Below are positions 5,203 through 22,020 of a DNA stretch of 36,046 nt, piece after piece (position 1 is the stretch's first letter; each line of letters opens with the position of its first letter). The stretch is from Crocinitomicaceae bacterium (GTDB taxonomy: Bacteria > Bacteroidota > Bacteroidia > Flavobacteriales_G > Salibacteraceae). A model generated the notes under the pieces. That model made no database searches. It was given only the letters and a program-made list of their open reading frames with translations, and was not told where the DNA came from. The position numbers were made by a program, and so were the translations under genes. The DNA lies in the NCBI GenBank assembly GCA_002713215.1, contig PAVO01000012.1:1-36046 (forward strand), given 5' to 3'.

Positions 5203-5928
5203 TTATGCCACGTGGTGTTCAATAATAACACCTGTTTTTCCAATGGTATAAAAAGTAGTGGCCGGTTTATTTCGCTCGTTTAAGTACTCCTGATAGTCGG
5301 CTGAAAAGTCTACACGTTCCTGAATTACCCGGTTATATTGTCCATTTAATCCCATGAGCAATTCGCAAGTCTCTCTTACTGCATGTTCTCCTCCGGAATA
5401 GGCAGTAATGTAATCTGCCAGGTCATTTTGCCTTACGAATTCGGAGAACAGCACCTTGGCATGGGATCGCACAAAAATGCGAATTCCCACCTTTTGAGCG
5501 ACTGACAGGTCCAAGATATCGTCATAGACATAAAGCACTTCTTCGGGCTTTATTTTATGAACTTCCTCAATGTGGTTGAGGGCGTCAATTTTATTGGGAA
5601 CCTTGAAATATACTTTTCTAAAATGTTCTCTTTTCGCAAAATCGTAAGCAGCGTAATTATCGGCGCCGGTCAGAATGCCACAATAGGGCATTTTTTTATC
5701 GTGCAGCAGCCATTGAGAAAATCGCAACATATTGGTTCCCATTGAATCAACTTCGGAAAACCCACTTTGACTATTTCCTCCTTTGGACCCTTCGTTGAAC
5801 ACACCATCCCAGTCAAAAAGAATGGCTTTTATATCCTTTAATCTGTTGGATATACTGTCAGGGGAAGAAAGAAACTCTCCTCCCCGGTTTCGAAATAATT
5901 CAGCTATTTTATTGGCTGAAACATCCAT
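5203..5928 (-). CDS. KdsC-like HAD phosphatase (Kdo-8-phosphate phosphatase candidate)
   Basis: HAD-superfamily phosphatase resembling 3-deoxy-D-manno-octulosonate-8-phosphate phosphatase. Motif I is FDWDGVFNEG with nucleophile D39 and acid D41. Motif II is GILTGADN (T87), K113 is in KVPNK, and motif III is YVYDDILDL (D136/D137). The KdsC tail signature appears as GGEHAVRE at 179-186. At 241 residues it is longer than ordinary KdsC (about 170-190), with about 30 extra residues before motif I and about 50 after the tail motif. Motif I also differs from the usual FDVDGV. It starts one base after the transaldolase-CBS stop in the kdsA operon, so dephosphorylation of Kdo-8-P is the best guess. 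The extra segments leave room for a modified substrate or an interaction role. Confidence 0.75.
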   Translation of the reverse strand: MDVSANKIAELFRNRGGEFLSSPDSISNRLKDIKAILFDWDGVFNEGSKGGNSQSGFSEVDSMGTNMLRFSQWLLHDKKMPYCGILTGADNYAAYDFAKREHFRKVYFKVPNKIDALNHIEEVHKIKPEEVLYVYDDILDLSVAQKVGIRIFVRSHAKVLFSEFVRQNDLADYITAYSGGEHAVRETCELLMGLNGQYNRVIQERVDFSADYQEYLNERNKPATTFYTIGKTGVIIEHHVA

Positions 5929-5929
5929 T

Positions 5930-6940
5930 TTAGCTAGCTAAATCTTGAATATCCAACATACCTACCGGGCTACCATTTTCTGTTACCAACAAGGTGTCAA
6001 CCTGTGTATTTTTAAACATCTCCTGGGCATCGTTTAGCAATGCACCACCATCGATTGACTTTGGTGTTCCATAATCTAAATCGGCCAGTTTCATACCCAT
6101 AACAGAATCACCTTTTGTTCCAACCAATCGTCGTAAATCACCATCAGTAAAAACTCCTCTTAGGCTACCATCTCCATTTATTACGGTTACACAACCGTAA
6201 CCAAACTCAGTCATTTTTATAATGGCTTCAGGAATTGTCAACTCAGCAGAAACGGATGGGTTAACATTCTTCATAGCACTTTTTACCGTGTTCATCATCA
6301 AACGTGTGTGCTCAAAAAACTGATCGGTTCCTACGGTTGTAAAGTTATTCTCCGTCAATTGTTTCATCACCTTCCAGGGTACAGTGCAAACGTGAACTCC
6401 GGCATTAATTGCATTTCGAACATGCTCAGGATAACGAACCGAAGAGAACATGATTTTGGTATCGTAGCCATAATAGTTTACGGCTTCAACACATTGCTCA
6501 ACCAATCCAAGTGCATCGTGGCCCTGGTCCTGCAAACGACCAACCAATGGACATACATAAGTCGCCCCGGCTTCCATAGCCATATAGGCTTGCTGGAGGG
6601 TATAAACCAAATGAACGTTAACCATAATGCCATCGTCGGCCAATACCTTACATGCTTTTACACCTTCTAAAGAAACAGGAATTTTAAAAACCGATTTCTC
6701 CTTGGTTAATCCCATATCCAATTGACGGTAAGCCTCAGCAATAATTTCTTCAGCAGTTTGACCCAATGCCTCAACCTGAAGAATTGGAACCATGTCAGCT
6801 AGTTTTAAAATTAAGCCATCAATATCAGCAACACCATCTCTATGCATAAATGTTGGAGTGGTGGTTAAACCCGTTAAGAAACCAAGTTTAAATGCCTCTT
6901 CGATTTCGGTAATGTTGGCTGAATCTAAATATAATTCCAT
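5930..6940 (-). CDS. Transaldolase/FSA-type aldolase fused to a KdsD-like CBS pair
   Basis: 336 residues in two parts. Residues 1-215 are a transaldolase-family barrel resembling fructose-6-phosphate aldolase: MELYLD with D6, GLTTTPT, and FKIPVSLEG with the Schiff-base lysine K86. PLVGRLQDQG and FSSVRYPEH follow. Residues about 230-336 are two CBS motifs (EAIIKMTEFGYGCVTV, GVFTDGDLRRLV, DTLLVTENGSPVGMLDIQDL). These closely resemble the CBS pair of arabinose-5-phosphate isomerase KdsD/KpsF. By alignment from memory, FSA Asn28 is Thr and the catalytic-water residue Thr109 is His110. It lies between kdsA (30 bases upstream) and the KdsC-like gene (1 base downstream). Inference: it supplies or controls the arabinose-5-phosphate precursor of Kdo, with the CBS pair sensing a nucleotide or CMP-sugar. 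Transaldolase activity itself is unproven. Confidence 0.85.
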   Translation of the reverse strand: MELYLDSANITEIEEAFKLGFLTGLTTTPTFMHRDGVADIDGLILKLADMVPILQVEALGQTAEEIIAEAYRQLDMGLTKEKSVFKIPVSLEGVKACKVLADDGIMVNVHLVYTLQQAYMAMEAGATYVCPLVGRLQDQGHDALGLVEQCVEAVNYYGYDTKIMFSSVRYPEHVRNAINAGVHVCTVPWKVMKQLTENNFTTVGTDQFFEHTRLMMNTVKSAMKNVNPSVSAELTIPEAIIKMTEFGYGCVTVINGDGSLRGVFTDGDLRRLVGTKGDSVMGMKLADLDYGTPKSIDGGALLNDAQEMFKNTQVDTLLVTENGSPVGMLDIQDLAS

Positions 6941-6970: not shown

Positions 6971-7804
6971 TTAATTTCTGTATTGAACTTCTAAATTATG
7001 GATTTCTACTAGAGGTTTTAAAAATTCCTCTAAATCATAAACACAAAGTTGGCTAGCTGCATCGCATAATGCTTTAGTTGGTTCAGGGTGGGTTTCAATA
7101 AAAACACCATCTACTCCAGCAGCCACACCGGCACGGGCAATTGTTGGTAAAAATTCTCTATTTCCGCCTTTCGGATCAGCACTTGGAATTCCGTATTTTC
7201 TAATGGAATGAGTAATATCAAATACTACCGGATATCCAGGCTGTCTCAAATGGTAAAAACTTCTTGGGTCAACCACTAAATCGTTGTATCCGAAGGTATA
7301 ACCTCGTTCGGTCAAAATAATTTGATCATTACCCGATTCAGTGCACTTTTCCACCGGCTTAATCATATTTTCGGGAGCCAGAAACTGACCGTGCTTGATA
7401 TTAACAACCTTCCCCGTTTTAGCTGATTCAACCAGCAATTCCGATTGCATACACAAGTAGGCCGGAATTTGAATTACATCCAATACTTCTCCTGCAGGTG
7501 CAGCCTGAGAAGGGTTGTGAATGTCAGACAAAATGGTAAATCCAAAATCATTTTTGATTTTTTGAAGCATTTTAAGCCCTTCCTCCAATCCTGGACCTCG
7601 ATAAAACTTCAGTGAAGATCGATTGTCTTTTACAAAAGACGACTTGTAAATGATTTTGATGTTCATTCTTTCCGAAACTTCAACCAGTTTTTCGGCGGTT
7701 TTCATCATTGTACTTTCGTCTTCAATAACGCACGGGCCGGAGATTAAGAACAACTCATCGGCACCACAATCTATATCTCCAACTTTAACAATCTTTTCTG
7801 ACAT
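6971..7804 (-). CDS. kdsA: 3-deoxy-8-phosphooctulonate synthase, metal-dependent type
   Basis: Condenses phosphoenolpyruvate with D-arabinose 5-phosphate to Kdo-8-phosphate, the first committed step to the LPS inner-core sugar. The 277 residues cover the full length. Signatures are SGPCVIED, KSSFVKDNRSS, ILSDIHNPSQ, IQIPAYLCMQ, KHGQFLAPENM, DITHSIRKYG and ETHPEP. C25 stands where non-metal enzymes such as E. coli KdsA have asparagine. With H199, E237 and D248 it completes the metal site, so this is the metal-dependent class. A -7 element lies 22 bases upstream of the ATG. It heads a unit with the transaldolase-CBS gene (gap 30) and the KdsC-like gene (gap 1). Confidence 0.96.
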   Translation of the reverse strand: MSEKIVKVGDIDCGADELFLISGPCVIEDESTMMKTAEKLVEVSERMNIKIIYKSSFVKDNRSSLKFYRGPGLEEGLKMLQKIKNDFGFTILSDIHNPSQAAPAGEVLDVIQIPAYLCMQSELLVESAKTGKVVNIKHGQFLAPENMIKPVEKCTESGNDQIILTERGYTFGYNDLVVDPRSFYHLRQPGYPVVFDITHSIRKYGIPSADPKGGNREFLPTIARAGVAAGVDGVFIETHPEPTKALCDAASQLCVYDLEEFLKPLVEIHNLEVQYRN

Positions 7805-7924: not shown

Positions 7925-8686
7925 CTAAGCATTTTCTTTTTGGGCCAGCAAGGTCCGAACCCGTTCCAAATCATCAATGGTATCAACCGGAATAGAATCG
8001 TAACCGGTTAATTCCACATGAATACTATTGCCATTTTCAATCCAGCGATTTTGTTCCAGTGACTCCATTCTTTCCAGCGTTGACAATGGTAATTCTGCAA
8101 ACGATTTGAGCGCTTCATGGGTATATGCATACAATCCTACATGCTTATAAAAAGTATGATGCTCCAACCAATGCATTTTATGAATTCCTCTTATGTGGGG
8201 AATTACTGAACGACTGAAATACAATGCCCGCATGTTTTTGTCCAACACCACAAATGCCTCACTCTCATTAAACAAATCTTCAGGTGAAGAAACAGTGGTT
8301 ACCAGTGTAGACATTCTTACGTCCTGTCTTTCAAATGGGGCTATCAGTTCCAATAGCTGATTTGGTTCAAGCATAGGCTCATCGCCCTGAACATTTACAA
8401 TAACATCAAAGGATGTCCCCAGCTTAGCAACTATTTTTTCATAAGCTTCCAGGCACCGGGTACTTCCATTTTGGTGATCAACAGAAGTCATCACCACATT
8501 GCCTCCAAATTCGGTGACGGCTTGCTTTATTCTTTCGTCATCTGTAGCAACAAATGCATCAGGTATAGCTTTAATGGTTTGCTCATAAACCCGTTGAATC
8601 ATTGGCTTACCCAGAATATCCATAAGGGGTTTACCTTCCAGGCGAGAACTTCCAAACCGAGCTGGAATAATTGCTAATGGCTTCAT
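7925..8686 (-). CDS. kdsB: CMP-Kdo synthetase (3-deoxy-manno-octulosonate cytidylyltransferase)
   Basis: Activates Kdo, or here plausibly 8-amino-Kdo, with CTP to the CMP-sugar used by the inner-core transferase. The nucleotide-binding start is MKPLAIIPARFGSSRLEGKPL-like, with the RFGSSRLEGK motif. NVQGDEPML (metal-binding Asp) and SRSVIPHIR follow, as does TLERMESLEQNRWIENG, typical of KdsB. The open frame extends 12 codons further to a GTG at 8722. That extension spans the -7 element at 8704-8711, and KdsB proteins begin just before the PLAIIPAR segment, so ATG 8686 (253 residues) is the likely start. It is divergent from kdnA, 167 bases away. In Shewanella a KdsB encoded beside kdnA/kdnB prefers the amino sugar; whether this one does is inference from context. 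Confidence 0.95.
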   Translation of the reverse strand: MKPLAIIPARFGSSRLEGKPLMDILGKPMIQRVYEQTIKAIPDAFVATDDERIKQAVTEFGGNVVMTSVDHQNGSTRCLEAYEKIVAKLGTSFDVIVNVQGDEPMLEPNQLLELIAPFERQDVRMSTLVTTVSSPEDLFNESEAFVVLDKNMRALYFSRSVIPHIRGIHKMHWLEHHTFYKHVGLYAYTHEALKSFAELPLSTLERMESLEQNRWIENGNSIHVELTGYDSIPVDTIDDLERVRTLLAQKENA

Positions 8687-8703
8687 ATATCTAAAAATCG
8701 TGG

Positions 8704-8711
8704 CAAAGATA
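8704..8711 (-). promoter_or_regulatory. -7 element of kdsB, deciding its start codon
   Basis: The minus strand reads TATCTTTG, followed by CCACG, ending 17 bases before ATG 8686. It lies inside the 12-codon upstream extension of the kdsB frame, which argues against translation of that extension. Confidence 0.6.
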
Positions 8712-8812
8712 GAGTAAAGCACACAACACTATAATTTTCTAAAGGAAACACTACTGAACCATAAGTACAAATTACCTGGAACAAGGAGTATTAAAACCGC
8801 CGTCGTATTATT

Positions 8813-8853: not shown

Positions 8854-10044
8854 ATGCCAGGAACAGAATTATTTGGAGAAGAAGAAAGAAAAGAAGTAAA
8901 TGACGTAATGGAAACTGGAGTTCTGTTTCGATATGGTCATGATGCTCAACGAAACGGACACTGGAAAGCGAAAGAATTTGAAGCAGAAGTAGCTCAGTTC
9001 ACTGGTGCTAAATATGCCCACGGTGTAGCCAACGGAACGGCTGCCATAACCTGTGCGTTGGCTGCAGCCGGAATCGGATACGGTGACGAAGTTATTTGCA
9101 CCCCATTCACTTTTATGGCTACCAACGAGGCTGTTATGTTCTTAGGTGCTATTCCTTTGTTTGCCGAAGTTGACGAATCTCTTTGTCTGTCTCCGGAAGG
9201 AATTGAAGCAGTTGTAACCCCCAACACCAAGGCCGTTTGCCTGGTTCACATGTGTGGTGCAGCGGCACGATTGGATGAAATTAAAGCTGTTTGCGAAAGA
9301 CACAATCTGATTTTAGTAGAAGATGCCGGTCAGGCGCTGGGAGCCTTTTATAAAGGAAAACATGTTGGTTTGCATGGCGTAGCAGGAGCTTTCTCATTCG
9401 ACTTTTTCAAACTGGCTACTTGCGGCGAGGGTGGAATTTTCATTACAGACGATGAAGAAACTTATAAAAAAGCAGATACCTATTCCGATCATGGGCACAC
9501 TCACATTGGAGACAATAGAGGCATGGAACAACACCCTTATTTGGGACTAAACTATCGATTGGGTGAACTCAATGCAGCCATCGGATTGGCTCAAATGAGA
9601 AAAGTGCCTAACATGATTGAAACACAAAGGCGAAATAAAGCGATACTAAAAGATGCACTGAATACCATTCCTGAATTAACCTTCCGACATTTAAGTGATG
9701 AGGCAGGAGATTCTTGTACTTTCTTAAATTTCTTTATGCCAAGCAAAGAGGGCGCTAAAAATGCAGCGGATGAGCTCGGTAAAGCAGGAATTGGTGCAGC
9801 ATATTGGTATACCAACATGTATCATTTCATTAATCAATGGGATCATGTACATAACCTAAGTACGGTGTCTAAACTGCCGGTTAATGTTTTACCAAAACCA
9901 CAGGATTATGCCAATCTGGATTTACCAAAATCGCAGGATGTAATTGGTAGATTAATCTCCATAGGGGTTAGTGCCAAAAAAGAAACAAGTGAAATAGAAG
10001 CGATGGCCAACCAATTGGCAGAAATCGTTAGAAAACACGTTTAA
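8854..10044 (+). CDS. kdnA: Kdo8N transaminase (8-amino-3,8-dideoxy-manno-octulosonate aminotransferase)
   Basis: PLP-dependent DegT/DnrJ/EryC1/StrS-family aminotransferase, 396 residues. In Shewanella oneidensis KdnA transfers an amino group to 8-oxo-Kdo made by KdnB, giving 8-amino-3,8-dideoxy-D-manno-octulosonate. The N-terminus MPGTELFGEEERKEV, with VMETGVLFRY, matches my memory of KdnA closely. Other matches are NGTAAITCALAAAGIGYGDE, CLSPEGIEAV, LVHMCGAAARLDEIKAVC, LVEDAGQALG and SDHGHTHIG. The PLP lysine is K186 in FFKLATCGEGG. It is followed after 20 bases by kdnB and stands divergent to kdsB. A generic sugar aminotransferase is possible from the family alone; the kdnB and kdsAB context makes the Kdo8N role strong. 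Confidence 0.9.
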   Translation: MPGTELFGEEERKEVNDVMETGVLFRYGHDAQRNGHWKAKEFEAEVAQFTGAKYAHGVANGTAAITCALAAAGIGYGDEVICTPFTFMATNEAVMFLGAIPLFAEVDESLCLSPEGIEAVVTPNTKAVCLVHMCGAAARLDEIKAVCERHNLILVEDAGQALGAFYKGKHVGLHGVAGAFSFDFFKLATCGEGGIFITDDEETYKKADTYSDHGHTHIGDNRGMEQHPYLGLNYRLGELNAAIGLAQMRKVPNMIETQRRNKAILKDALNTIPELTFRHLSDEAGDSCTFLNFFMPSKEGAKNAADELGKAGIGAAYWYTNMYHFINQWDHVHNLSTVSKLPVNVLPKPQDYANLDLPKSQDVIGRLISIGVSAKKETSEIEAMANQLAEIVRKHV

Positions 10045-10064: not shown

Positions 10065-11141
10065 ATGAATCACATCAATTTCAATAATATTGGTAAAATC
10101 TGCTACGGCAGAGGATCGTATAGCCAATTGGGCGAAATTCTGGAGCCCAGAAGAAATGATAACAAAGGGTATATGGTTTTTGTGGTCGATGATTATTTTG
10201 AAGACAAGGACTTTAGCATTCCTGCAAAAGGAAATGACCTGGTTTATTACATCGACGGAAGCCATGAAGAACCAAAAACTTCGCTGATTGATGATTTGCG
10301 CGATGAGATTTTATCGACCCAGGGATTACCGGCCGGGATTGTTGGAATTGGCGGTGGTAGCCTAATGGATATTGCGAAGGCCCTTTCCCTAATGGTTACC
10401 AACGAAGGTTCTTCGGTACTTTACCAGGGGCTGAATCTAATAAAAAAGCCGGGAATTTATCATGTAGGAGTTCCTACCATTTCAGGAACCGGAGCCGAAT
10501 GTTCTATGACTGCTGTATTGAGCGGACCGGAAAAGAAGCTGGGGCTCAAATGTGAATGGACGGTTTTCAATCAGGTGGTATTGGATCCTGATTTAACCAC
10601 AACAGTACCTACTGATCAATGGTTTTATACCGGTATGGATACGTTTATTCATTGCATTGAAAGTGCTACGGGAATTAAATACAATGCTTTTTCCAAGGCT
10701 TATGGAGATCAGTCACTGGAGTTGTGCCGCGAGGTATTTCTTGGTGAAAATGCCGGACAAAATCCGGAAAACGATGAAAAGCTGATGCTGGCTTCTTTGT
10801 TTGGCGGGCTAAGCCTAACTTATTCTGAAGTTGGTGTATGTCACGCACTAAGCTACGGGTTGAGTTATGTATTTGGAACCCGACACGGTTACGCTAACTG
10901 TCTTGCATTTAATCACCTGAAGGATATCTATGGAGAGGCAGTGGATGAGTTCCATGATATGGTGGTTCGATTCAATATTAACCTTCCGGTAAATATGTCT
11001 GCCGGTTGGACTGATGAAGAAATTACAGCGATGAGTGAAATTGCGATCCGTTTGGAGCACATGTGGAACCACGCCTTTGGACCAGGCTGGAAAGACAAAG
11101 TAGATTTAGAATACATCAAAGGGCTATACAGAAGGTTATAA
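10065..11141 (+). CDS. kdnB: Kdo 8-oxidase/dehydrogenase, iron-type alcohol dehydrogenase family
   Basis: Group III metal-dependent alcohol dehydrogenase, 358 residues. In Shewanella KdnB oxidises the C8 hydroxyl of Kdo to the aldehyde that KdnA aminates. N-terminal IGKICYGRGSYSQL is typical of KdnB. The cofactor loop is GIGGGSLMDIAKA and VPTISGTGAECSM follows. Metal ligands are visible as D192 and H196 (MDTFIHCIESATG), H260 (EVGVCHALSYG) and H274 (TRHGYAN). It is translated 20 bases after kdnA, and the GT2 start follows 8 bases after its stop. Assignment rests on the family motifs plus the kdnA/kdsB neighbourhood. Confidence 0.9.
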   Translation: MNHINFNNIGKICYGRGSYSQLGEILEPRRNDNKGYMVFVVDDYFEDKDFSIPAKGNDLVYYIDGSHEEPKTSLIDDLRDEILSTQGLPAGIVGIGGGSLMDIAKALSLMVTNEGSSVLYQGLNLIKKPGIYHVGVPTISGTGAECSMTAVLSGPEKKLGLKCEWTVFNQVVLDPDLTTTVPTDQWFYTGMDTFIHCIESATGIKYNAFSKAYGDQSLELCREVFLGENAGQNPENDEKLMLASLFGGLSLTYSEVGVCHALSYGLSYVFGTRHGYANCLAFNHLKDIYGEAVDEFHDMVVRFNINLPVNMSAGWTDEEITAMSEIAIRLEHMWNHAFGPGWKDKVDLEYIKGLYRRL

Positions 11142-16656: not shown

Positions 16657-18375
16657 ATGAAAAATTTAATCATTGTTAAAACAATACTGCTGTGCTTCTT
16701 TGTAGGAGATATACTGGCACAACCAGCTAACCTAACTCAAATTGCTTCAGCTCGGTATGTTTATGCTGGAACAACTCCAACCAATAACAATACAGGTAGT
16801 GATATTGCGAAAGTAAGTCCTACCAGTACTACCCTGCGGGATGAAAACGTTACAGTTTATCAAACTACAACGGGAATAGAGATGCGCCATATACAGAAAG
16901 GTATTTTAGGCACAGGCACACAGGTTACCTTGGGCGTTGGACTAGGTCTTACTAACATGAATGATCCTGATGTGGTCGCGGTTACCAACGCACCCTATGG
17001 ATTGGGTACACCGAAGGAAATTGTTATGGTAACTTATATTGGAACTACCGGTGGATTTCCAAACGTATTTCTGGAAATTTTTCATTGGGACCGTCCCTCT
17101 GGAACCTTTTTGCGGCTGAGTTGGGCTAATTTAACTCAAAACCGAGCAACTGGAGTTTGTACTAGCCCAAATATTGACGCTGATCATTTGGGGAATTATG
17201 CCGTAGTATGGGAAGAAAGTGGTAAAATTTATTTAGCTAGCGAAAATATAATGACTCCTCCAGGGATAAATTTACCAACCAAGTTTGTTGATATGACTGC
17301 TTCCTGCGTCGCTACAGGTGTTGAACCTGATGTATGCGTTATGCCAGATGATCCTATGACTAGCCTTTCACTCATTAACGTATCATTTCGAGTTGGCAAT
17401 AATCTCTATCTAGAACGAATTTGGACTTCTACCTTAGTTCCTGGATTGATAAATTATCCTGCAGCAAATTGTTTAAACCCATTCATGTTCTATAACAACT
17501 TATTAACCGCTGGTATTTCTGACATTCGAATCGCTTGCCCACCACAGAAAAATCACGGTAGGGATGTTTATGAAGTTACCATGACCTTTATCCACAATGG
17601 GACAACCAATAACGATGTTATGACCGCCACCCATAGTACGTCTAATTTTGGAATGGGTGTTATCGTTTATAGCTCACCAACCATGGGATTTTTACCTGCA
17701 TTTGGAGTTGGCTACAACCATTCAAAGCCTGTAGTAGCATATCAAGATCTGGTTCCTGAGTTTGTGGTTGCGTGGGAAATGGTAGATACATATACAAGTG
17801 GATTGCAAAATGCCTACAATGTAGCAGCAAATTTTGCTCCGCAAGTAATAAATACAAATAAGAACATTGTTGCAATGCCAGTTACGGATGCTAACACTAT
17901 GGTGAATCCATATATTTCTCAAGCAAGTGAACACAATATTTTTGCGCAGACATCAGAGGCCGTGAGTGTTAGCAAGGGAGATATTTCTCCTATGAATTAT
18001 ACTTACACTGATGCTTCTGCGGAAAGGATAAACACCAATTTTGCAGGACTAGCTTTTAAAACAACTCCAGAAGCCAACTATTGGCTTATTGATAGACCCA
18101 GTACTATTGTTAATACTCAAAGTGTAGAAGAATTTGAAAAGGTGATTGCATATCCAAATCCTGCTCCTTCACATACGGGTGAAATTACAGTGGATCTTGG
18201 AGTATTTACCAGTGGAGAAATAATTATTTTGTCCATAGATGGAAGAGTGGTTTATGAAAATACGTTTGAAGAAGAAAACCAAATTTCTATTGAAAACAAC
18301 CTGGAAAAAGGAACCTATTTGATTAAGACCCAAACAGGTAACAACGAAGAAATCCTTAAATTCGTTATCAATTAA
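16657..18375 (+). CDS. T9SS-exported protein with C-terminal sorting domain
   Basis: 572 residues. A signal peptide spans about 1-22 (MKNLIIVKTILLCFF, then GDILAQP). The body (about 25-480) has no domain I recognise. It contains beta-rich stretches such as NYAVVWEESGKIYLASENI and PEFVVAWEMVDTYTSGLQNA, which suggest propeller-like blades. From about residue 489 there is a type IX secretion C-terminal domain: VIAYPNPAPSHTGEITVDL, IIILSIDGRVVYENTF, then LEKGTYLIKTQTGN and ending KFVIN. The product should cross the outer membrane and be released or anchored at the surface. Function unknown. It is followed by a long hairpin and a second T9SS protein. Confidence 0.85.
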   Translation: MKNLIIVKTILLCFFVGDILAQPANLTQIASARYVYAGTTPTNNNTGSDIAKVSPTSTTLRDENVTVYQTTTGIEMRHIQKGILGTGTQVTLGVGLGLTNMNDPDVVAVTNAPYGLGTPKEIVMVTYIGTTGGFPNVFLEIFHWDRPSGTFLRLSWANLTQNRATGVCTSPNIDADHLGNYAVVWEESGKIYLASENIMTPPGINLPTKFVDMTASCVATGVEPDVCVMPDDPMTSLSLINVSFRVGNNLYLERIWTSTLVPGLINYPAANCLNPFMFYNNLLTAGISDIRIACPPQKNHGRDVYEVTMTFIHNGTTNNDVMTATHSTSNFGMGVIVYSSPTMGFLPAFGVGYNHSKPVVAYQDLVPEFVVAWEMVDTYTSGLQNAYNVAANFAPQVINTNKNIVAMPVTDANTMVNPYISQASEHNIFAQTSEAVSVSKGDISPMNYTYTDASAERINTNFAGLAFKTTPEANYWLIDRPSTIVNTQSVEEFEKVIAYPNPAPSHTGEITVDLGVFTSGEIIILSIDGRVVYENTFEEENQISIENNLEKGTYLIKTQTGNNEEILKFVIN

Positions 18376-18385
18376 TTAATATTTA

Positions 18386-18422
18386 TTACCTTTCTTCCAA
18401 TCTTTTATTGGAGGAAGGGTAA
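18386..18422. terminator. Long hairpin between the two T9SS genes
   Basis: TTACCTTTCTTCCAAT (18386-18401) pairs along its whole length with ATTGGAGGAAGGGTAA (18407-18422), leaving CTTTT as the loop. This is a 16-bp stem with two G-U wobbles on the + strand, extendable by an A-T pair. No T-run follows. It could terminate the upstream gene or stabilise its 3' end. The GGAGG in the right arm is 18 bases before the next ATG. Confidence 0.6.
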
Positions 18423-18432
18423 TTAATAATTT

Positions 18433-21400
18433 ATGAAACAGAGCATTCTTGTATTCTTTATTTTCTTAATTGGTATATCTGCTCAAAGCCAAATTCTAAA
18501 GGAATGGGCAATACAAAGGATTAACCCAAATTATGGTGCTATTAAACCAAAAGACACGGTTCTTACCTTTAATTTTTTTCAACCCAAAATGCACCTCGAT
18601 ACCATTGTACTCAATAGTTCTAAAAACTACCGTGCAAACTTTTATCCCAATAGAGGTGGATTGGCCTACGGTAATGGAAAGACAGCAGTATATTCAGCAG
18701 GACAGGCTTTTTACGATTCAACAAAATACGCTTTTGATTCTTTACATTGGTTTGCTGCGGAAAGAGGCCAAAATTTATTGGTTAGGAGCTTAAGACACGA
18801 TTCTATTTTTTATCATTTGAGTTATAGTGCACTTCCACATTATAACTATTTCAACCAGGCATTTGGAACCCGATATTATTCCTATTCAGATTCACTCGGC
18901 CATATAAAACCCTTGACTTCCATATACTATTTAGATAGTTTGAAAAACACGGACTCAACGGTCAAGGAAATGACGAAGCACAGCTACATATTCTTTTCTT
19001 TTCCACATTGCAATGGAAAGGACCTGTGGGTGGGTTATTGGCATCTCTTTCATAAACGTTTTTATACCTACCTCATCGATCAAAATGGATTAAACAAAAC
19101 ACCGGTCGTTTCTCCCCAATTGAACGGATTGGATTATTTATTGGATTTATGTATTTCCCCTGTTGGAAATAGAGTGGTTATGAAAGGTGTTGATACCCTT
19201 TCAACAAAATATTATAACGCTACATTAGGAGCTTGGGTGTATGACTCATCCGAAGTGAGTTTGTATACGGTAGACTTCAATAACAATTTAGGGATATTTA
19301 ATAACTACAACCAGTTTTATAAATTTAAGAATATTCATTACATCTATGGTATTGGAGCGCCAAAAGGCGCTCATATGGCATTTTCGGCTAGTGGTAATTA
19401 TTTATACAACATTAACTCTAAGGAACAATATCATCAATACCAAGGGTTTTCTAAAGTAATAGATACCATATCATTAAATCAATTCGAAAGAAGCGGAAGT
19501 ACTTATGTTAACCGTACGCAAATTGATTACACTTTAAATACCGGGCTAAATAACAAATTTCCTCTTGATGAATTTCAGGATATTGCCCGGGGACCAGATG
19601 GGAAGATTTACGTAATTGCTCAAACCTACAACGTTGCAAACTACCCTGGATTTGATATTAATGTCATACATCGTCCAGAAAAAAAAGGAATAACTTGTAG
19701 ATACCAGAAATCCTATAAAGATTCAATTCCTATCGGTTACCTGCATTTCCCTCGCCTTCCCCCTTCTTCGGTATCCGAAGCCTGGCTTTTTCATGAGAAT
19801 GCCTGTGTAAAAGATACGGCTGTGCTTTGGATTAACGACTCTACCTGTATCGATTCCTTAAAATGGGATTTTGGAGATCCTGGCTCTGGAGCATTGAATA
19901 CAGCAACCGGTTTTAAGGTAGGTCACCGCTACAATCAGGTGGGTAAATACAATCTTAAAATCGTTCGCTTTGAGGGAGGTATACCCGATACTCTGCTTAA
20001 GAATATTGTGGTAGAAGGTGGCGATACGGTTCACATACGCTCCGATACCCTGCTTTGCGCAAAAGACACCCTCTTTATTCAACCCAACCTAAACAACGAC
20101 TACGATTTTGTTTGGTCTACTGGAAGCAACGATAGCGCCATTTACTTTTCAGACTCCGGATGGGTTTGGGTAGATGCCTTCAATAAATGTGTACTTACCC
20201 GAGATTCTATGTATGTTAGCTATGCGTCAACTCCAAAAGTTGATTTACCTAACGATACTGCTGTTTGTGATTCCTTTCCATTGTCAACTTCCTGGGCCAG
20301 GGCAAAGTATTCCTGGAGTACTGGAGATTCCACCACCTCCATAGTTCCCACAACCACTAAAAAGTATTGGGTTACCGCAAAAAACATTTGTGGCTTCGAT
20401 TCCGACAGTATAAATCTTGAAATTCATCATTCAGCTCAATCCAACATAACCGATACCACGTTCTGTAAGGGCAGTAGCTATAAAATAAACCTCAATTTTC
20501 CGCATACCATTTACTGGTGGAGTGCCATAACCAATAAACCTTATGCAACCTACTCCAAAGCAGGTAAACATTGGGTAAGGACCAATAACTTGTGTGGGGT
20601 TTTTAGAGATACGTTCGAAATAAAGTACACTCCCAATCCCAATGTGGACCTGGGTAATGACACCACCATTTGTTCTAACCTACCCCTAACCTTAAATGCC
20701 GGTGCGGCAGATACCTCATTAAGATTCTACTGGTACCACAATGGAACTATAGATTCTTCGGTTGTGGTAAATACTGCCAGGCAGTATAAGGTAGAGGTAA
20801 AACACGAATGCGGTAGATTGTATGATTCCATAAGGATAGATCATGTGGACAAACCAGATTTGTTACTGAAAGATACTTCCATATGTTTAGGAGATTCTGC
20901 TACACTATTGGCTAGTTTGGGCTGGAAAAGTTCTGCTACCAACACCTCTTCAATATTCATTTGGTCTACTGGTGATACCACCTCGTATGCTTCCATTAAG
21001 AACTATGGTAAGTATTGGGCGAAAGCGGAAAACAAATGCGGTAGTGATTCGGTTGATTTTGAGGTTACCGAACTGCAACCTGTAAAAATCAATTTCCCAG
21101 GCGATACCATTATTTGTGACAACAATACATTAACTCTAGACGCAGGTAATCAGCGTGCAACCTATCTATGGCACAATGGAAGCACTAAATCCAGCCATTT
21201 GGTATTGGGTTCTGGAACCTACTCGGTGCGTGTAGAAAACCCCTGTGGCTTTAAATCCAAATCGATAAACGTAACCCATTTAAAAACCCCTGTGGCCTTA
21301 GTTAATGCAGAACCTAACAGCAGAGTATGTCCCGGAACTCCCGTTACTCTTTTGGGTAGAAGTGGAACAGACGAAGGCCAATACCTCTGGAATACAGGAG

Positions 21401-22020
21401 ATACTTCCAATACAATACTTGTAAAAGAAGCCGGAGAATACTCGCTTACTGTTACCAATTATTGCGGCAGTCACTCGGTAAAATTCAATCCAGCTTTTTT
21501 TGCCATTAAGGCAGGATTCACTCTCAACAAAAAAGAAAGCATGATTCCTCTTGACTTAATTGGCAACAACTCTTCTGCTGGCGCCGATCAGTTTATTTGG
21601 TTAATGGATAATAAAAAAATTGGAGAAGAAAGGGATTTAACCTACCGAATTATCCCTTTTGGAGACCATGTTATTTCACTGGTAGCTTACGACAATTATG
21701 GATGCAGGGATACTGTTTCTGATTCTATAAGAGTATTGCCAAACCCCAACATTCCACCATTGCTATGCGATTTTAGAATAGACCCCAACCCGGCCAAAGA
21801 CCACTTTGTAATTACAGCTTTGAACAACGACAAGCAAGTAAGGGAGATAAAGATCTTCAACGACCTGAGCCAAGTAGTTTATCAATCCGACATTTCTCAT
21901 TGGGAAGAAAACCCTTTTTACTTCGAACATCGCTTTACCAACCTGCCCTCGGGTACCTACCTCGTTGGGCTCTTTTGTGTGTCTGAAACTAAATTTAAAA
22001 GAATTGTTGTGAGCGAGTGA
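18433..22020 (+). CDS. Large T9SS-exported protein with PKD-like and seven Cys-paired Ig-like repeats
   Basis: 1195 residues. A signal peptide covers about 1-19 (MKQSILVFFIFLIGISAQSQ). Residues about 20-450 resemble the propeller-like N-terminal region common in Bacteroidota surface proteins (AFSASGNYLYNINS, FQDIARGPDGKIYVIAQTY). A PKD-like domain follows (about 455-527; WDFGDPGSG, GHRYNQVGKYNLKIV). Then come seven tandem repeats of about 70 residues (530-1020). Each has a DTxxC-like first cysteine, a WSTGD- or WHNGS-like turn, and a second cysteine usually in NxCG. A second PKD-like domain (about 1025-1100) precedes the T9SS sorting domain (about 1112-1195: DFRIDPNPAKDHFVI, LPSGTYLVGLF). Probably a surface adhesin or structural protein; ligand unknown. 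Confidence 0.88.
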   Translation: MKQSILVFFIFLIGISAQSQILKEWAIQRINPNYGAIKPKDTVLTFNFFQPKMHLDTIVLNSSKNYRANFYPNRGGLAYGNGKTAVYSAGQAFYDSTKYAFDSLHWFAAERGQNLLVRSLRHDSIFYHLSYSALPHYNYFNQAFGTRYYSYSDSLGHIKPLTSIYYLDSLKNTDSTVKEMTKHSYIFFSFPHCNGKDLWVGYWHLFHKRFYTYLIDQNGLNKTPVVSPQLNGLDYLLDLCISPVGNRVVMKGVDTLSTKYYNATLGAWVYDSSEVSLYTVDFNNNLGIFNNYNQFYKFKNIHYIYGIGAPKGAHMAFSASGNYLYNINSKEQYHQYQGFSKVIDTISLNQFERSGSTYVNRTQIDYTLNTGLNNKFPLDEFQDIARGPDGKIYVIAQTYNVANYPGFDINVIHRPEKKGITCRYQKSYKDSIPIGYLHFPRLPPSSVSEAWLFHENACVKDTAVLWINDSTCIDSLKWDFGDPGSGALNTATGFKVGHRYNQVGKYNLKIVRFEGGIPDTLLKNIVVEGGDTVHIRSDTLLCAKDTLFIQPNLNNDYDFVWSTGSNDSAIYFSDSGWVWVDAFNKCVLTRDSMYVSYASTPKVDLPNDTAVCDSFPLSTSWARAKYSWSTGDSTTSIVPTTTKKYWVTAKNICGFDSDSINLEIHHSAQSNITDTTFCKGSSYKINLNFPHTIYWWSAITNKPYATYSKAGKHWVRTNNLCGVFRDTFEIKYTPNPNVDLGNDTTICSNLPLTLNAGAADTSLRFYWYHNGTIDSSVVVNTARQYKVEVKHECGRLYDSIRIDHVDKPDLLLKDTSICLGDSATLLASLGWKSSATNTSSIFIWSTGDTTSYASIKNYGKYWAKAENKCGSDSVDFEVTELQPVKINFPGDTIICDNNTLTLDAGNQRATYLWHNGSTKSSHLVLGSGTYSVRVENPCGFKSKSINVTHLKTPVALVNAEPNSRVCPGTPVTLLGRSGTDEGQYLWNTGDTSNTILVKEAGEYSLTVTNYCGSHSVKFNPAFFAIKAGFTLNKKESMIPLDLIGNNSSAGADQFIWLMDNKKIGEERDLTYRIIPFGDHVISLVAYDNYGCRDTVSDSIRVLPNPNIPPLLCDFRIDPNPAKDHFVITALNNDKQVREIKIFNDLSQVVYQSDISHWEENPFYFEHRFTNLPSGTYLVGLFCVSETKFKRIVVSE

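Follow-up and report, generated by a model that had tools for sequence, protein, structure and literature searches.

Kdo is a sugar of the outer membrane in most Gram-negative bacteria, and the step that provides arabinose 5-phosphate (A5P) for its synthesis is credited to isomerases of the KdsD type. How, then, does a bacterium supply its KdsA with A5P when its Kdo genes include no such isomerase? The question is raised by a window of 36,046 nucleotides, which represents an entire contig (C12) of a Crocinitomicaceae genome (5.03 Mb, 98.92% complete, 4.39% contamination). A preliminary description of this window had pointed out that its Kdo cluster has no SIS-domain isomerase and that a gene for a transaldolase barrel fused to CBS motifs lies between kdsA and a KdsC-like gene. 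Both points hold: the three genes follow each other on the minus strand (Table 1), and no SIS domain was found in any of the nine cluster proteins scanned. We propose that the fusion is probably a class-I (Schiff-base) aldolase with the transaldolase fold, which supplies A5P to KdsA in place of KdsD. A literature search, covering for the most part papers outside subscription, returned no description of a transaldolase-CBS protein in the Kdo pathway.

Table 1. Features of the Kdo cluster and of the fusion gene (positions in the window)
Feature	Position	Strand	Remarks
KdsC-like HAD phosphatase	5203-5928	-	NF007019, 63.2 bits (cut-off 208)
Transaldolase-CBS fusion gene	5930-6940	-	336 aa, ATG start; predicted A5P-supplying enzyme
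CBS pair, KdsD type	5939-6283	-	Residues 220-334; PF00571, profile against PDB, model against 4o9k
Transaldolase-type barrel	6296-6940	-	Residues about 1-215; PF00923, AlphaFold model against 1vpx
Codon of K86, Schiff-base lysine	6683-6685	-	Alignment, invariant in 85/85; position computed from ORF coordinates
kdsA, F-type clade	6971-7804	-	TIGR01362, 335.5 bits (cut-off 314)
kdsB, CMP-Kdo synthetase	7925-8722	-	TIGR00466, 212.8 bits (cut-off 155)
kdnA, 8-amino-Kdo transaminase	8854-10044	+	Closest solved structure 5k8b, 441 bits
kdnB, Kdo 8-oxidase	10065-11141	+	Closest solved structures 3rf7 and 5k8c, 381-383 bits

The genes kdsB, kdsA, the fusion gene and the KdsC-like gene form one run, from which kdnA and kdnB are divergent, and a single base separates the stop codon of the fusion from the start codon of the KdsC-like gene. 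The product of the latter also stays under the TIGR01670 cut-off (51.5 versus 106.95 bits). The 8-amino-Kdo transaminase 5k8b is the sole solved structure matching the kdnA product at E ≤ 1e-60, and the best matches of the kdnB product include 5k8c, which is named as a Kdo 8-oxidase. These matches identify the neighbourhood as a Kdo/8-amino-Kdo cluster, and with the kdnA-kdnB pair its product is probably 8-amino-Kdo. The Kdo transferase family PF04413 is also represented in the host genome (129 bits). Elsewhere in the window, two ORFs of 572 and 1195 aa (16657-22020, plus strand) gave no Pfam match at 1e-10. Over the window as a whole, Rfam gave no match at gathering scores, and no tandem repeats were found.

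The fused architecture seen in the preliminary description, a transaldolase barrel with K86 and D6 joined to CBS motifs, was borne out by the domain matches. Residues 3-219 of the fusion correspond to TAL_FSA (PF00923; E 9e-34, 117.5 bits, gathering cut-off 27), with K86 and D6 invariant in all 85 fusions compared, and residues 220-273 to CBS (PF00571; E 6e-13). Pfam lists a single CBS motif, and the second is visible in the structure model and in the match to the kpsF profile (TIGR00393), which covers residues 214-327, the CBS half only. The protein scores below the cut-offs of both the KdsD/KpsF A5P isomerases (TIGR00393, 49.5 versus 203.7 bits) and the fructose-6-phosphate aldolase equivalog (TIGR00875, 169.2 bits versus the curated 245.95). 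Another natural fusion of a transaldolase barrel is, by its name, the bifunctional transaldolase/phosphoglucose isomerase NF007080, a model of 949 positions against which our protein scores only 19.6 bits (cut-off 712).

The fusion is not a chance product, as full-length relatives with 64-86% identity to it occur in 84 other loci, none of them copying the window's. In a panel of 296 Bacteroidota genomes, each at least 90% complete, four genomes besides the host had such a relative among the matches listed (64-69% identity, aligned over residues 1-334 or 335). The remaining listed matches covered only the barrel (33-39% identity) and ended at residue 209-260, the longest of them reading through stops. 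A scan of one genome per species revealed 491 relatives, of which the best 80 share 68-86% identity with the window's fusion and come from Flavobacteriales, Crocinitomicaceae, Chitinophagaceae, Sphingobacteriales, Cytophagales and Bacteroidales. The 85 carriers discussed here are the window, the four panel genomes and these best 80 of the 491 loci. Nine pairs within the 80 are at least 98.5% alike, with none between the 80 and the panel carriers, so that invariance among the 85 fusions (64-86% identical to the window's, some of them near-copies) partly reflects relatedness.

If the fusion replaces KdsD, the two should seldom occur together. The preliminary description had left room for an intact KdsD elsewhere in the genome, but the kpsF profile found nothing above its cut-off over the whole host genome. 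Its three weak matches were the CBS pair of the fusion itself, a CBS protein about the size of IMPDH, and a SIS protein of 189 aa with a likeness to GmhA, both names being read from length and sequence. A KdsD hidden in the host was rejected on these grounds. In the panel, kdsA (TIGR01362, E ≤ 1e-40) was detected in 219 of the 296 genomes and KdsD (TIGR00393, E ≤ 1e-25) in 211, with 208 over the cut-off. When the two sets were compared by eye on the genome lists, in agreement with the tallies of 219 and 211, KdsD accompanied kdsA in 210 genomes and was missing from nine, and one genome with KdsD (G114) had no kdsA match. These nine are the five carriers of the fusion (G000, G091, G146, G190 and G292) and four genomes with neither KdsD nor fusion (G023, G200, G268 and G284), in each of whose families other members have KdsD. 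No panel genome had both proteins among the matches listed, and KdsD is missing from only four of the 214 fusion-free genomes with kdsA (Fisher's exact p 3e-8 for the exclusion, a test that ignores phylogeny). The 72 genomes with kdsA from the host's own class comprise 67 with KdsD and five with the fusion, none having both and none neither. Both states are found within families f3, f9 and f11, and the switch therefore cannot be put down to a single deep divergence.

In the full set of 85 carriers, KdsD was found in eight (5/55 over the cut-off, and 3/30) and is missing from 77, while kdsA scored over its cut-off in each of the 55 carriers searched for it, which left their Kdo route unexplained. 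Assembly gaps were rejected as the reason: 50 of the 55 carriers with kdsA have no KdsD, and missing sequence is thus not the explanation. The proposal of the preliminary description that the fusion is a replacement source of A5P gains weight from this contrast (77/85 carriers without KdsD versus 4/214 fusion-free genomes) and from a natural exchange in genome G249.

This exchange became visible through KdsA, which in the carriers is of a type of its own, here called F-type. KdsA was seen in 54 of the 85 carriers, and an F-type protein, 72-94% identical to that of the window, was present in all 54. In a phylogenetic tree, a branch with support 100/100 separates 41 F-type sequences from 22 canonical KdsA proteins (40-50% identity); this stem is long, and the tree program flagged long branches within the canonical group. 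In 13 further carriers with kdsA located away from the fusion, KdsA is again F-type (73-79% identity to the window's). Compared with the 22 canonical proteins, four active-site motifs of the F-type carry the fixed changes A60D (in the KANRS motif), R119M (RQTD), K138H (KKGQF) and Q202R, and its L7 loop is different but strictly conserved (SIRKYGIPSAD). All 41 thus have M119, H138, R202 and this other L7 in place of the canonical RQTD, KKGQF and SLQ motifs and loop, and all 41 keep K54, K59, N61, R62, K137, R167 and H199. In PMC6650799 the L7 loop is described as important for A5P binding. The F-type enzyme appears to keep residues that correspond by motif to the PEP and phosphate contacts given there.

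F-type KdsA occurs in six panel genomes, the five carriers and G249, a member of the same family as carrier G190. The G249 operon reads kdnA-kdnB-kdsA(F-type)-kdsC-like-kdsB, with 91 bp and no transaldolase match at the expected place of the fusion, and its KdsD is located outside this operon. The exchange in front of the same KdsA implies that the fusion and KdsD supply the same metabolite, A5P. G249 would thus represent a natural swap of A5P sources, and no other single observation points as strongly to A5P as the product of the fusion, an identity that we infer from sequence comparisons. G249 also keeps the KdsC-like gene without the fusion, indicating that this gene is a component of the F-type operon and not tied to the fusion. 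KdnB relatives (E ≤ 1e-80) were detected in 21 of the 296 panel genomes, including four of the five carriers and G249.

Some carriers have more than one version of these enzymes. G306, G322 and G332 (loci L049, L065 and L075) contain KdsD, the fusion and two kdsA genes, one per type, as if KdsD with canonical KdsA and the fusion with F-type KdsA coexisted as two systems. In G308 and G313, KdsD and the fusion occur with just one kdsA, of the F-type. KdsD genomes contributed 21 of the 22 canonical KdsA sequences, and the remaining one comes from carrier G343 (L086), in which the fusion occurs with KdsA of either type while no KdsD exceeds the cut-off. The canonical KdsA of G343 would accordingly depend on the fusion. 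With regard to KdsC, the host has a canonical enzyme at C11:7100-7555 (123 bits), and the KdsC-like gene is conserved beside the fusion all the same. KdsC was found over its cut-off in 19 of the 25 genomes to which this count was restricted (21 carriers and the four with neither KdsD nor fusion), and carriers G091, G292, G304, G313 and G330 yielded either low-scoring matches alone or nothing at 1e-8 with the profile.

What reaction might yield A5P on this scaffold is suggested by the barrel. The AlphaFold model of the fusion (54 sequences, mean pLDDT 83.6, residues 197-216 poor) matched 1vpx with Z 28.7 (194 residues at rmsd 1.4); among the matches listed, further small transaldolases came out at a similar level. 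The preliminary description spoke of an FSA/transaldolase barrel; more precisely, the protein is nearer to the transaldolases 3r8r and 1vpx than to E. coli FSA, and like plain transaldolases it has a glutamate, E57, at the place of the catalytic Gln59 of FSA. FsaA and FsaB of E. coli have the same fold, about 27% identity to the fusion and no regulatory domain, with Gln59 corresponding to Glu and Tyr131 to L132 in our protein. These two residues, named here from structure titles and placed by motif in an alignment without an FSA row, are E57 and L132 in 85/85 fusions. Closer relatives are the small transaldolases of subfamily IV (B. subtilis 3r8r, T. maritima 1vpx and T. acidophilum 3s0c), which are alike in fold (Z about 28.5) and have in common with the fusion the Schiff-base lysine K86, D6, the catalytic glutamate and the phosphate site R135/S167/R169. 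They differ in having neither the CBS pair nor the Kdo operon and, going by plain Bacteroidota relatives, in N28, S55, T110, S130 and F132, which are changed in the fusion.

Alignment with 26 plain Bacteroidota transaldolases sharpened this picture. D6, E57, K86, N108, R135, S167 and R169 are the same in 85/85 fusions and 26/26 plain enzymes, and these include the catalytic trio of subfamily IV (K86, D6 and E57). In contrast, T28, Q55, H110, C130 and L132 of all fusions are N, S, T, S and F in all plain enzymes, so that the subfamily IV donor-pocket set Asn28, Thr110, Ser130 and Phe132 has become Thr, His, Cys and Leu in 85/85. Both substitutions noticed at the outset are therefore real, Asn28 to Thr as it was described and Thr109 to His with the amendment that 109 is FSA numbering for H110 of the fusion. 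The title of 4xz9 names E60 and F132 in T. acidophilum. By motif, we take S176, F178 and R181 of TalB to correspond to C130, L132 and R135. According to PMC3962226, S176 (A129 in FSA) governs the donor preference of TalB, the F178Y exchange converts TalB into an aldolase, and the phosphate of the acceptor is bound by R181. The predicted catalytic and phosphate-binding parts of the fusion are kept, whereas its putative donor pocket is rebuilt, the serine predicted to favour dihydroxyacetone being gone. Judged from its residues, such a pocket would suit a smaller donor such as glycolaldehyde.

In the proposed reaction, K86 would form an imine with a small aldehyde donor, most likely glycolaldehyde, with D6 and E57 performing the acid-base work and R135, S167 and R169 holding the phosphate of the acceptor. 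The resulting enamine would add to glyceraldehyde 3-phosphate (G3P), and hydrolysis would release A5P for consumption by KdsA. The (2S,3R) addition expected of this fold gives exactly D-arabinose 5-phosphate from glycolaldehyde and G3P, though naming these two as the exact substrates is a guess on our part. The supply of glycolaldehyde is the weak point of the aldol reading, as we know of no source large enough for Kdo synthesis. A ketose-to-aldose isomerization on a lysine imine was rejected by mechanistic reasoning, because the sugar would stay bound as a secondary amine. Previously, FsaA and FsaB have been reported to prefer glycolaldehyde as donor and glyceraldehyde 3-phosphate as acceptor with formation of A5P (PMC6298115). 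The transaldolase of F. tularensis was solved, judging by the title of 3upb, in covalent complex with arabinose 5-phosphate, indicating that the barrel lysine can hold A5P covalently. The 3upb protein is presumably an ordinary classical transaldolase without a CBS pair.

The regulatory half points to the same pathway. The preliminary description had likened it to the C-terminal half of KdsD, and the comparison with solved structures agrees: a profile of 25 fusion CBS pairs ranked 4o9k, 3k2v and 3fna first, second and fourth in the PDB, all three of them CBS pairs of A5P isomerases. A separate model of the CBS pair (25 sequences, mean pLDDT 83.6) also found its best PDB match, among the matches listed, in 4o9k, the CBS pair of a putative A5P isomerase from Methylococcus. 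The motif TDGDLRR is common to the fusion and KdsD-type pairs. With the KdsD profile the fusion CBS pair scored 50 bits in the host genome versus 46 for the IMPDH-sized protein, and given this small margin the PDB ranking is the better evidence that the pair is, by its sequence, of the KdsD type. KdsD, KpsF and GutQ thus have a CBS pair of the same type and apparently the same product, but they carry a SIS isomerase domain where the fusion has an unrelated barrel. The ligand in 4o9k we take to be CMP-Kdo. Binding of a late product to the CBS pair would slow the enzyme, and feedback of this kind probably operates on the fusion, with CMP-Kdo or CMP-8-amino-Kdo as our guess for the ligand.

A different chemistry on the same barrel would remove the glycolaldehyde problem. 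The fusion could be a C2 epimerase that cleaves a C-C bond and converts ribose 5-phosphate to A5P, with the activated end-product sugar of the pathway acting back on it through the CBS pair. K86 would form an aldimine at C1, and retro-aldol cleavage or enamine formation at C2 followed by re-addition from the other face would invert C2. Such a route needs one central metabolite only; T28, H110, C130 and L132 align with donor-pocket residues, H110 being a new candidate acid/base, the covalent arabinose 5-phosphate named in the 3upb title would fit, and aldolase-like epimerases exist (AraD, FolB). Against this, we know of no epimerizing member of the transaldolase fold, whose stereocontrol is normally strict, and we regard the epimerase as unlikely, both as a reaction and in the steps outlined. 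If true, it would add a further way to A5P and a reaction type that is, to our knowledge, new to this fold. In another reading, the fusion would make another phosphorylated aldose for the divergent F-type KdsA, and the operon would lead to a Kdo variant by a different route. The changes at positions 60, 119, 138 and 202 and in L7 relative to the 22 canonical enzymes speak for it, L7 being the loop connected with A5P binding in PMC6650799. However, G249 pairs F-type KdsA with KdsD in the absence of the fusion, G308 and G313 have F-type KdsA alone together with KdsD and the fusion, and G343, which lacks KdsD, combines the fusion with one KdsA of the canonical type and one F-type. A different acceptor for F-type KdsA is possible but hard to square with these four genomes; in addition, the KdsA of the window scores above the KDO8P synthase cut-off and keeps K54, K59, N61, R62, K137, R167 and H199, making this reading improbable.

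Alternatively, A5P could derive from another SIS enzyme, for example GlmS, and the fusion would be a transaldolase whose function in the operon has nothing to do with A5P. GlmS is near-universal, yet only four of the 214 fusion-free panel genomes with kdsA have no KdsD, and hence GlmS does not as a rule make KdsD dispensable. In favour of this reading, human GFAT isomerizes ribulose 5-phosphate to A5P according to PMC11301363, and an E. coli mutant in A5P isomerase is rescued by GFAT genes. The plain transaldolases compared have another donor pocket than the fusion, and a plain transaldolase is encoded elsewhere in the host (C20:185-814), so this explanation has very little probability in our estimate. 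An ordinary transaldolase merely sitting in the operon was rejected for the same two reasons, the pocket differing in 85/85 fusions.

An aldolase that supplies A5P would fill the KdsD gap with a different chemistry while bearing the presumed sensor of KdsD, and would exemplify the exchange of a catalytic domain while the regulatory domain is retained. A further prediction is that the aldol reaction to A5P, so far used in synthetic pathways, has a natural role. The annotation of such fusions as plain transaldolases would need correction, and the replacement would be relevant to any inhibitor aimed at KdsD.

Linkage of the fusion to Kdo genes, expected from the preliminary description, is common across genomes but not universal. 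Where the flanks reach 8 kb or more on each side (53 loci), at least one kds or kdn gene lies within them (up to 10 kb) in 43 loci, and none is in view in the other ten. By gene midpoints, kdsA is located upstream at a distance of up to 3 kb in only 35/79 loci, and a KdsC-like gene follows downstream within 2.5 kb in 56/76, in each case on the strand of the fusion. Over all 84 loci, many of which are ended by contig ends, KdsC-like genes were counted in 61, kdsA in 39, kdsB in 29, and kdnA and kdnB in 27 each. Where the fusion is located away from kdsA, the surrounding genes did not point clearly to a substrate. In 12 of the 84 loci, including L059, the gene immediately upstream of the fusion is phosphoglycerate kinase-like, a name read from the sequence of one representative.
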